DNA from: a virus
IMG/VR virus record: IMGVR_UViG_3300030116_002251
Span: 1-31,078 of that record
Length of the DNA: 31,078 nucleotides
Direction: 5' to 3' (one strand)
Of the stretch, positions 566-3,366 are shown piece by piece. How positions within the stretch are numbered: the first letter of the stretch is position 1; the number at the start of each line of letters is the position of its first letter. Made by a program: the position numbers and the translations under genes. The notes below the pieces were generated by a model. It saw only the letters and a program-made list of their open reading frames with translations, was not told the DNA's origin and did not search any database.

Positions 566-1732
566 TCACATTACAGAGTAACTTCCGTAATTTCTATTTA
601 ATCCAATAGTTTCCATTTCATGATACCTAACCGCATCCAAAGCATGATTGTATTCTCCAATAGGTTTATTAAGTTTTTTTCCTGCCTTATCTGTATCCCA
701 GCAATAACTACGCAGCTCTTTGATGAGGTTTGTGCTATCTCTAGTTACTAAATAATCCTGCCTCTGCATTACATCAATGCCATAATTCAATGAGTCTTTT
801 CCTTTGGATGCTCCTTTTATCAATATGCCATTTTTAAACCGTCTGATCTCCTCAATGCTTTTAGGCTCTGCCGAATCTGCAAATACAGGTATGCTTATAG
901 GCAATATTTTGGCAATGTCTGAGTTAAGCATTTCTGTTTGATAGGCAACCTCGTTTAATATTCTTTGATTATTATATTTATATATCTCAATGACTGCCGT
1001 CGGATCTGCGGAATATCCAAAGTCTAAGCCTATGCCTATTAATCTTGCCTCTTGAGGAATGTTATCAATAATTTTATAGTTAGTGAATATAGCACCTTGT
1101 AGTTGACCTATCTGCCCTTCTCCGTAAACACGCCACCAATTAGCCCAATAACTACTTGTTTTTGCTTTTAATCGATTCTTTTCGATTTGTGATACTATGC
1201 CCTCATCAAGACCTTCATTGTCCTTATAAGTCAAAATAATAAAATCTGCATCCGCATCCATTTGCAGTTCAGTATGCACCCAAAACTCATTTGCTGGATT
1301 AAAGTCAAGATACACTTCACGCTTTGTTCTAATTGAAAGCTCGTTATAAGCATCAAAGGTCACATTATTGCATTCGTTAATATACAAAATATCCCTTCTA
1401 GCACCTCGCAATTTGCTTGAATCATCTGCACTAAAAAACTCAATGTAGCTTCCATTGGCAAACGTATATTGTGATCTACTTTTATTGTATCTGTCATCAA
1501 TATAACGATTAGTCCACCGCATAATTTTTAAGAAATCTTTTAAAGCTCCTCTCCTCAAATGCGGATGACTTTCGGCAACAACTGATATTTCAAGATTAGG
1601 TATGCTGCACGCTTTATGGATCAATATGGGTAAAATGCCAAATGTTTTGCCAGCACTTGTACCGCCTTGTATTATTTTAATCCTTTTATTAAGAGCTAGG
1701 ATTTTATTTATTGCCGTTGTCCTCTTTAACAT
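566..1732 (-). CDS. terL: Terminase large subunit (DNA-packaging ATPase/nuclease)
   Basis: The protein pumps phage DNA into the prohead through the portal and cuts the concatemer. The 388 residues carry a Walker A motif GGTSAGKT (23-30) and a Walker B-like ILYINE ending in E120. The RNase-H-like nuclease half has LDFGYSADPTA (D237), VFADSAEP (D286) and NHALDAVRYH (D366), the three acidic positions expected. Length is slightly short for the family (usually 400-600) but no motif is missing. The start overlaps the small-subunit gene by 29 bp, typical of a coupled terS-terL pair. The packaging strategy (cos or headful) cannot be read from the sequence. Confidence 0.96.
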   Translation of the reverse strand: MLKRTTAINKILALNKRIKIIQGGTSAGKTFGILPILIHKACSIPNLEISVVAESHPHLRRGALKDFLKIMRWTNRYIDDRYNKSRSQYTFANGSYIEFFSADDSSKLRGARRDILYINECNNVTFDAYNELSIRTKREVYLDFNPANEFWVHTELQMDADADFIILTYKDNEGLDEGIVSQIEKNRLKAKTSSYWANWWRVYGEGQIGQLQGAIFTNYKIIDNIPQEARLIGIGLDFGYSADPTAVIEIYKYNNQRILNEVAYQTEMLNSDIAKILPISIPVFADSAEPKSIEEIRRFKNGILIKGASKGKDSLNYGIDVMQRQDYLVTRDSTNLIKELRSYCWDTDKAGKKLNKPIGEYNHALDAVRYHEMETIGLNRNYGSYSVM

Positions 1733-2036
1733 CTGGGAATAAAGGTTGCTCTATGTTTGTTTGTTCGATTTGTTGCAATGGTTGACCATAAGCAGAATCC
1801 ATTAATTTTTGATATGCTTGCACGTCTCCATCTCTTGCTTTTTTAATTAATGCTAATGTCATCAAATCCTCTTGCGACATTTTTTCTATTTCGCTTGTTA
1901 AAGGATTCTTTAAGTCTTGCTCTACTCCGAGCCATTTTTTTGCAATAGTACTTCTGTTTTTTGATCCTACAGGTCTGCCTTTTGGATTGCCGCTTTGTCC
2001 TTTTTTATAAGGTATTAAATTTTCTTCGTTAGCCAT
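1704..2036 (-). CDS. terS: Terminase small subunit-like protein (DUF5681-type)
   Basis: A 110-residue protein immediately upstream of and overlapping terL. Near the N-terminus it has YKKGQSGNPKGRPVGSKNRS (10-29), the signature of DUF5681 proteins, often encoded next to large terminases and thought to recognise packaging-site DNA. The middle (about 50-85) is predicted helical and the tail is polar and acidic. The ATG at 2034-2036 is preceded on the minus strand by an A-rich run, as usual in Bacteroidota. The role as small subunit rests on the domain and position; DNA binding is inferred. Confidence 0.8.
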   Translation of the reverse strand: MANEENLIPYKKGQSGNPKGRPVGSKNRSTIAKKWLGVEQDLKNPLTSEIEKMSQEDLMTLALIKKARDGDVQAYQKLMDSAYGQPLQQIEQTNIEQPLFPDVKEDNGNK

Positions 2037-2043
2037 TTTTTAC

Positions 2044-2051
2044 TATATTTG
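2044..2051 (+). promoter_or_regulatory. Candidate Bacteroidota -7 box for the plus-strand tRNA
   Basis: TATATTTG matches the Bacteroidota -7 consensus TAnnTTTG exactly. It ends eight bases before the first base of the tRNA-like gene, so transcription would begin near the mature 5' end. A weak -33 candidate TTTC (2021-2024) sits 19 bases upstream. The box points away from every protein gene in the window. Confidence 0.6.
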
Positions 2052-2058
2052 TTTAAAT

Positions 2059-2129
2059 GCGCAGTTAGTGTAATTGGTAGCACGTTATGCATCCAGCATA
2101 AAAGTAAAGTTCAAGTCTATTACTGCGCT
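2059..2129 (+). tRNA. tRNA-Gly(UCC)-like gene with atypical anticodon loop
   Basis: The 71 bases fold as a cloverleaf. The acceptor stem is a perfect 7 bp (GCGCAGT/ACTGCGC). The D arm is GTGT/GCAC with the conserved A14 and GG. The anticodon stem TTATG/CATAA is perfect, and the T loop TTCAAGT is canonical. The loop CATCCAG places UCC at 34-36, and U73 fits bacterial tRNA-Gly. Oddities: base 33 is A instead of the near-universal U, the variable region is only 3 nt, the T stem has two mismatches, and CCA is not encoded. The 3' end overlaps the end of the mom-like gene by ten bases on the other strand. It may be a working tRNA, a tRNA-like decoy or a decaying copy. Confidence 0.65.
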
Positions 2130-2788
2130 CTATTTCTTTCACTTAAAGTTATTTTTTCGCCTTTATACATTCCAGCACCCATTTCATCTATTTTCTTAAA
2201 TGGAATTTCCGGAACATTAAGCTCCGCTTTTTTATCTATTAATAGAATATATCTATTCTGAAATCCTGCTAATGCCTTTGCTCCTTGAAAATTGTATTTA
2301 GAATCTCCTCTTTTTGCAACTATTTCGCCATTTGCTAATTTATATATAGTGGAATTTTTATTTATCTGAGTTAATTTAAATCCACTTGCTCTATATATTG
2401 TACCGTCTCCGCATTGACTTGCATCTGAATAACTTAAAATCCATTTGATTTGAGGAGCATTTTTTTTTATTAATCTAATGGCAATTGCAATGCATCTGCT
2501 TTCTGAATATTTAGGCAAATAATCATCGAATGCCATTCTGTTTAATTCTAGCATTTCATTCCACTTTTCATTAAATCCATTGTTGCACGTTTTTACTAAA
2601 TTTAAAACGTTTCTTTTATCCATAGGCGGTCCGAAGCTCATCACGCCATGCAATTTTGAATCTAAGAAAGCTCCAAAGTGCAAATTACTTAAATTGACTA
2701 CCTTGCCAGAATAATGATGATTCTTTACAAAATGATTTGCAATTTTAGATGGTATTACTTTTACTATTATTTCTTTTGCTCTGCCCAT
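2120..2788 (-). CDS. Mom-like DNA adenine modification protein
   Basis: This 222-residue protein resembles the phage Mu Mom family, GNAT-fold enzymes that convert adenine in DNA to a methylcarbamoyl derivative and so block host restriction. Visible family-type segments are VKNHHYSGKV (21-30, with HHY), LHGVMSFGPP (46-55), ELNRMAF (81-87), SESRCIAIAIRLI (95-107) and ILSYSDASQCGDGTIYRASG (117-136). The last matches the SYxD...GTIYxAS region around the proposed active site. About 50 C-terminal residues extend past this core. The gene overlaps the ParB-domain gene by 22 bp, suggesting coupled translation. The family call is good; the exact base product and target site are unknown. Confidence 0.75.
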   Translation of the reverse strand: MGRAKEIIVKVIPSKIANHFVKNHHYSGKVVNLSNLHFGAFLDSKLHGVMSFGPPMDKRNVLNLVKTCNNGFNEKWNEMLELNRMAFDDYLPKYSESRCIAIAIRLIKKNAPQIKWILSYSDASQCGDGTIYRASGFKLTQINKNSTIYKLANGEIVAKRGDSKYNFQGAKALAGFQNRYILLIDKKAELNVPEIPFKKIDEMGAGMYKGEKITLSERNRAQ

Positions 2789-3366
2789 TGCATAATTATT
2801 AAATAAAGCGCATTTCCATTGCTATTTTCATTTCCCATTGTCTCGCAATACTTATACTCATTGGTTTTCTTTACGTCTTCAATTGCGTTCCTAATTTGTT
2901 CTGCTTGCTCATCTGCTAAATTAAAAGTCATTTGCTGGAAAGGCTCTTTTTCTCCATTAGGTAAATTAAAGTCAGTTCCAAAATCATCACTGTCCTCTAT
3001 ATAAACGGGCAAATCTAAACCCCAATCCTCTAGCTTATCAACATCCCATTCATTTGCCAAATAATCCCAATCCCATTCACCAAAGCCAACATTGTCTTTT
3101 ATGATAAATTCTCTTTGTTGTTTCTCTGTTAATTGATCTGCTTTAATTATATAAACTTCTTTTAATTTTGCCTCTTGGCAAGCTCTTAATCTCATATTGC
3201 CCCCAAGCACAATATTATCTTTATCTACTACTATTGGACGTATTTCTAGCATCTCGGGAAATTCCTTAATTGACTTAACAAGCTTTTTAAACTTAATGTC
3301 CTTTATTAATCTTGGATTATTAGGATTTGTTTTTACCTGGCTTATCTTTACCTTCTGTGCTTTCAT
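2767..3366 (-). CDS. ParB/Srx-superfamily N-terminal domain protein
   Basis: The first ~95 of 199 residues form a ParB-like domain: VKISQVKTNPNNPRLI (6-21), IRPIVVDKDNIVLGGNMRLR (42-61), then a helical segment. The GGNMRLR motif corresponds to the nucleotide-binding GxxRxxA box. The rest is acidic with several tryptophans and a poorly conserved tail. Stand-alone ParB-domain proteins are common in phages, often beside DNA methyltransferases or other modification genes; some ParB-fold proteins bind CTP, others are nucleases. Overlap with the Mom-like gene suggests they act together, for example in site choice, but this is inference. It is not a plasmid partition protein: no ParA or HTH domain is seen. 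Confidence 0.8.
   Translation of the reverse strand: MKAQKVKISQVKTNPNNPRLIKDIKFKKLVKSIKEFPEMLEIRPIVVDKDNIVLGGNMRLRACQEAKLKEVYIIKADQLTEKQQREFIIKDNVGFGEWDWDYLANEWDVDKLEDWGLDLPVYIEDSDDFGTDFNLPNGEKEPFQQMTFNLADEQAEQIRNAIEDVKKTNEYKYCETMGNENSNGNALYLIIMQWAEQKK

Follow-up and report, generated by a model that had tools for sequence, protein, structure and literature searches.

A small tRNA-like gene in a virus genome fragment most probably encodes a dedicated, non-decoding glycine tRNA that serves as the amino-acid donor of the DNA modification enzyme Mom, whose gene lies beside it. The fragment, referred to here as the window, is the 31-kb IMG/VR virus record IMGVR_UViG_3300030116_002251, positions 1–31,078. 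A previous sequence-only reading described the RNA gene but left out the adjacent mom gene, from which the function of the RNA becomes understandable. Hundreds of viral contigs carry the Mom and RNA pair, as do prophage-like regions in bacteria of many phyla, and this recurring pairing suggests that the tRNA hands glycine to Mom to mark and protect viral DNA. We consider it likely that the pair represents a tRNA-dependent DNA modification system, in which a phage-borne enzyme has a translation-blind glycine tRNA of its own (D-armless bacterial mini forms included) and the charged tRNA is the donor for hypermodification of a DNA base. The features of the locus are collected in Table 1.

Table 1. 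Coordinates of the tRNA-like gene, its parts and the neighbouring genes in the window
Feature	Position	Strand	Details
Probable terminase small subunit (DUF5681)	1704..2036	-	Conserved on the far side of the RNA
TATATTTG, -7 box of a Bacteroidetes-type promoter (TAnnTTTG) for the RNA	2044..2051	+	
tRNA-Gly-like RNA	2059..2129	+	71 nt without CCA, U73 at 2129; ARAGORN and covariance model
Acceptor stem, 5' side, GCGCAGT	2059..2065	+	Partner strand 2122-2128
Remodelled anticodon loop C-AUCCA-G	2090..2096	+	A33, U34, C35, C36, A37; 32-38 closes a pentaloop
T arm TAAAG-TTCAAGT-CTATT	2105..2121	+	Mismatches 49.65 (U.U) and 51.63 (A.A)
Mom-family DNA modification gene, 222 aa	2120..2788	-	PF25680 E 6e-43; PHROG 1384
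ParB-like protein gene	2767..3366	-	Directly upstream of mom

ARAGORN predicts a single tRNA in the window, tRNA-Gly(tcc) at 2059–2130(+), and a covariance model (R1), built from an alignment of 33 distinct RNAs (A1), scores the window RNA at 81.9 bits (E 8e-22). The Rfam tRNA models gave no match at the gathering threshold, and none at E values up to 1 over positions 1900–2300; a search with the exact-loop pattern of the window RNA also returned no matches. The ARAGORN prediction, the R1 score and the covariation described below establish that the tRNA-Gly-like gene recognized earlier on the plus strand is real, and all sizeable genes near it are on the minus strand. The promoter box reported before its 5' end is likewise present, with 8 nt between the end of TATATTTG and G1. 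All 7 bp of the acceptor stem are paired, the discriminator is U, and G1-C72, C2-G71 and G3-C70 are identity pairs of GlyRS. The D loop keeps GG at G18 G19; several relatives have AAAAG or are D-armless. Because C32 always pairs with G38, the anticodon stem has 6 bp and the loop CATCCAG, which has A33, closes down to the pentaloop AUCCA. The variable region has 3 nt and the T stem is paired at three of its five positions. The perfect acceptor stem, the discriminator, the altered loop and the short variable region thus agree with the initial description.

Likeness to bacterial tRNA-Gly(UCC), combined with departures from its consensus, could mean that the RNA is a decayed host tRNA-Gly or is left over from integration at a tRNA gene. 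Its relatives argue strongly against this reading. All pairs of the acceptor, D and anticodon stems form (100%) in the window and in A1, where double changes occur in 17 of the 22 pairs of the cloverleaf and double-changed pair cells number 176 compared with 45 in shuffles, a signal that is lost when the structure is slid along the alignment. RNAs of a second Mom family gave 391 double-changed cells (104 shuffled) in an alignment that was fitted to the model. The T stem had been called weak; three of its pairs covary, and weakness does not describe the fixed pattern in which 49.65 and 51.63 are unpaired in 33/33 A1 RNAs. Strong covariation in all stems, departures maintained across two Mom families and numerous bacterial phyla, and a whole-length RNA with its own promoter leave practically no probability for decay. 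The earlier suggestion of a decaying host-derived tRNA is accordingly rejected, as the stems covary and the departures are conserved across hundreds of copies. The RNA is conserved far beyond chance and is neither decayed nor a lone oddity, and the covariation and conserved departures support the view that a well-kept body with an altered loop reflects a role other than decoding.

The conserved positions fall into those expected of a glycine tRNA and those that depart from a decoding one. Across all classes, the 204 distinct RNAs without exception have G1-C72 and C2-G71, and 202 of them have U73; C35 and C36 are invariant in A1. The GlyRS identity set (G1-C72, C2-G71, C35, C36 and U73) is essentially fixed, whereas position 34 takes all four bases across copies. 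Positions 32 and 38 form a Watson–Crick pair in 33/33 (A1) and 64/65 (alignment A4) distinct RNAs, which makes the loop a pentaloop or hexaloop across copies. A63 is found in 203/204 distinct RNAs of all classes, opposite G or A (an R·A mismatch at 51-63) wherever the T stem could be assigned. An ordinary phage tRNA that decodes glycine codons and lies near mom by chance, as the ARAGORN label tRNA-Gly(tcc) might imply, is extremely unlikely. Decoding calls for an open 7-nt loop with U33 and unpaired 32 and 38, whereas the window RNA has A33 (U33 is retained in some relatives) and the 32-38 pair; it also calls for the EF-Tu contact pairs 49-65 and 51-63, and 0/33 RNAs pair at either position. 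The EF-Tu sites are disrupted in essentially all copies, and the D-armless forms and the Mom linkage statistics argue further against decoding. The host tRNA-Gly(UCC) genes in mom-carrying Larkinella, Limnohabitans and Bradyrhizobium genomes have a fully paired T stem and U33. Compared with canonical bacterial tRNA-Gly, the Mom-linked RNA shares the cloverleaf, the GlyRS identity elements and U73, but differs in the T stem, the anticodon loop and, in the minis, the D arm.

A tRNA that keeps its synthetase identity but loses decoding features has a parallel in Staphylococcus, where tRNA-Gly isoacceptors with weakened EF-Tu-tuning pairs 49-65 and 51-63 have been proposed to escape translation and to feed peptidoglycan bridges (PMC4052509). 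The Mom-linked RNA is weakened at the same two pairs. The proposed recipients of the glycine differ, being the non-ribosomal transferases FemX/A/B for the non-proteinogenic tRNA-Gly of S. aureus (PMC4052509) and Mom here. Unlike the S. aureus tRNAs, the RNAs described here have outright mismatches, a closed anticodon loop and D-armless forms, and in both phages and prophage-like regions they lie beside the gene of a single enzyme, with DNA as the proposed acceptor.

The proteobacterial copies are D-armless mini-tRNAs of ~66 nt with an encoded CCA (70 of 72 distinct minis), in which the G.A mismatch again occupies the third position from the acceptor. D-armless tRNAs exist in mitochondria; the minis share the lack of the D arm with them but are found in bacterial and phage genomes, carry an encoded CCA and are tied to a DNA modification gene. 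CCA is also encoded in the copies of Psychrobacter phage Y8A. In this phage (vB_PmaS_Y8A, L161), two mini tRNA-Gly-like RNAs stand in tandem right after mom, at 2662–2729 and 2734–2802, both with encoded CCA and both missed by ARAGORN. As an isolated, culturable phage, Y8A offers an experimental entry point.

The protein encoded next to the window RNA belongs to the Mom family by profile, fold and essential serine. It matches phage Mu Mom (PDB 8bv8) with an E value of 3e-18 (phmmer), and its predicted structure (pLDDT 87.5) aligns to Mu Mom with a Z score of 20.4 over 187 residues. S97, the counterpart of Mu S124, is invariant in an alignment of 41 Mom sequences; the S124A mutant of Mu Mom is termed inactive in the title of PDB 8bv8. 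Window Mom and Mu Mom thus have the same family (PF25680), fold and active-site serine, and window Mom would be expected to make the Mu-type modification, N6-carbamoylmethyl-adenine. Phage Mu differs from the window in having no RNA next to mom, and the donor of its Mom is not established in the literature searched. Besides Mu Mom, the fold search returned ordinary GNAT acetyltransferases, with no aminoacyl-tRNA transferase among the matches listed, a result still compatible with kinship to such enzymes. The last codons and stop of the window mom overlap the 3' end of the RNA by 10 nt. The order ParB–Mom–RNA–TerS–TerL is common to the window and phage Y8A, whose mom region was the sole blastn match among isolate phages.

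The linkage was assessed in two sets of loci from IMG/VR, one gathered via the terminase and one via Mom. In most of the Mom loci, a simple cloverleaf scan picked up a single tRNA-Gly-like element following mom, and R1 detected exactly one RNA copy in 80/80 close Mom loci (the window and 79 others). Among the terminase loci, 2/80 carried the RNA (L002 and L022), precisely those with a close Mom, and R1 detected none in the 78 terminase relatives without one. In the second, divergent Mom family, which shows 18–27% identity to window Mom in the alignment (PF25680 E ~1e-32 to 1e-38), R1 found the RNA in 75/80 loci. Named bacterial genomes gave an adjoining R1 match at 20 of 39 mom genes, spanning Bacteroidetes, Acidobacteria, Planctomycetes, Chloroflexi, Verrucomicrobia, Proteobacteria and others. 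A further 15 bacterial-genome loci, including those of Bradyrhizobium, Gallibacterium, Rodentibacter and Limnohabitans, had a shorter D-armless copy that overlaps or follows the mom stop, with CCA encoded in nearly all. Because the generic D-armless scanner yields ~1 false hit per 100 kb, the count was restricted to those in register with mom; one or the other form of the RNA thus accompanies about 35/39 bacterial-genome Mom loci. The scan found no such RNA beside mom in Mu and 15 other isolate phages with a more distant Mom, nor next to mom in three closer genome loci (L255, L256 and L264), which indicates that the RNA is not essential for all Mom enzymes. Mom enzymes without a linked RNA might draw on host Gly-tRNA or on a different donor.

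The linkage to Mom is near-obligate from the side of the RNA as well, as judged by reverse searches in which RNA signatures alone, and not Mom, formed the query. The T-arm signature GGCGTTCGAATCGACC occurred in 76 contigs, of which 67 had a tRNA-like context, and a Mom homologue was found within 200 nt of all 67 tRNA-like sites; the remaining nine contigs were plain coding matches without Mom. Complete D-armless sites, sought with a 16-base signature, had Mom nearby in 103/107 cases, and contigs with the window-type T arm in 12/13. The RNAs without Mom nearby include L423, L429, L474 and L499; one of the exceptions is at a contig edge and one lies between terminase genes near a contig start. 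These figures bear on the idea, offered in the sequence-only reading, of a decoy or sink that would titrate anticodon nucleases, GlyRS or the enzymes of tRNA processing in infected cells. An altered anticodon loop in a short RNA with a strong stem would suit such a role, but a decoy would not need the Mom gene to which almost every copy is linked. Furthermore, position 34 is free and the D arm dispensable, varying or vanishing among copies, while the T-stem mismatch, the acceptor identity, C35/C36, U73 and a CCA that is either encoded or can be added are kept. The decoy is therefore unsupported and, in our assessment, very unlikely.

Expression and orientation also constrain the function. Among 85 distinct opposite-strand copies, 49 have the motif TANNTTTG in the 30 nt upstream (shuffle expectation 4.0), compared with only five of 70 same-strand copies (expectation 0.2). 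This enrichment indicates that opposite-strand copies have their own promoter, in line with what had been proposed for the window RNA, and same-strand copies appear to be transcribed behind mom. Parsimony on a tree of 155 Mom proteins gives 23 changes in how the RNA is oriented relative to mom, at least 14 of them on strongly supported (starred) branches. A linkage that is kept through so many strand flips fits a product that would act in trans rather than a cis element.

Regulation of mom is a natural rival, as Mu mom is heavily regulated. The RNA might be a non-catalytic partner or regulator, either a bound cofactor or, in charged or uncharged form, a control on Mom activity or mom expression, and the tight linkage, the co-duplication with mom and the copies that overlap the mom 3' end in antisense are compatible with this. 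However, both orientations occur and have switched many times, which rules out cis or antisense regulation as a general explanation, and a pure scaffold would not need the conserved glycylation identity, U73 and encoded CCA. We regard a partner or regulator as unlikely.

In the proposed mechanism, opposite-strand copies of the donor RNA would be transcribed from a promoter of their own and same-strand copies behind mom. We infer that the RNA would then mature, with CCA added by the host or already encoded in proteobacterial copies, and that host GlyRS would recognize the conserved acceptor pairs together with C35/C36 and U73 and charge it with glycine. With its 49-65 and 51-63 pairs broken and its anticodon loop closed, the charged RNA would evade EF-Tu and the ribosome; the role of the G.A element of the T stem may lie in avoiding EF-Tu, in recognition by Mom, or in both. 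Mom, a GNAT-fold enzyme, would move the glycyl group to N6 of adenine in phage DNA, its use of a charged tRNA being suggested by the genomic linkage. Mu Mom makes N6-carbamoylmethyl-adenine, in which N6 of the base bears a glycinamide unit. Because this product is an isomer of N6-glycyl-adenine (+C2H3NO in each case), the glycyl form could be turned into it by a Smiles-type rearrangement, and no further nitrogen donor would be required to complete the reaction. Phage DNA modified in this way would resist host restriction.

Acyl-CoA is the usual ligand of GNAT folds. It has also been proposed as the Mom donor in the review literature (PMC7824862). The CoA pyrophosphate motif [QR]xxGx[GA] is absent at the expected place in 36/41 Mom proteins and present in 5/41, so that its absence counts as weak evidence only. 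Precedents for the alternative donor are FemX and L/F-transferase, which take the amino acid from a charged tRNA in competition with EF-Tu (PMC4052509, PMC4810233). The analogy concerns how the enzymes work, as the acceptors of these two are peptidoglycan precursors or proteins and not DNA. We know of no dedicated linked tRNA gene for FemX or L/F-transferase, and in the open-licence literature we found no paper that ties Mom or any DNA modification to tRNA. If the proposal is correct, it would explain the glycine in the Mom modification and name the donor of Mom, and it would establish aminoacyl-tRNA as a donor for DNA chemistry. It would also define a class of bacterial tRNAs that have kept charging and lost decoding, down to D-armless minis of ~66 nt, and a two-part cassette that modifies DNA against restriction. 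The RNA family further offers a natural test of which features GlyRS requires and which EF-Tu rejects.

Several individual loci depart from the common arrangement. A Mom-linked tRNA-like RNA of a Saccharibacteria MAG (L258:3347-3418) has A73 instead of U73 and an encoded CCA; this base may suit a host GlyRS of a type with a preference for A73. In a Tenericutes MAG (L254:3226-3300), mom is followed by a different CCA-ended RNA-like sequence, which seemingly has no anticodon arm and does not begin with GCG. A D-armless mini tRNA-Gly stands beside a thymidylate synthase gene in L429 and L474, with no mom on the contig part examined. The order ParB–RNA–TerS occurs at L499:8704 with no mom detected nearby; this RNA is possibly a relic after loss of mom, or mom may be located elsewhere. 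In L097, L098, L109 and L154, mom is present twice in succession and the RNA follows the second gene, and in L402 (2191-2920) the unit of mom and mini-tRNA is duplicated head to tail.
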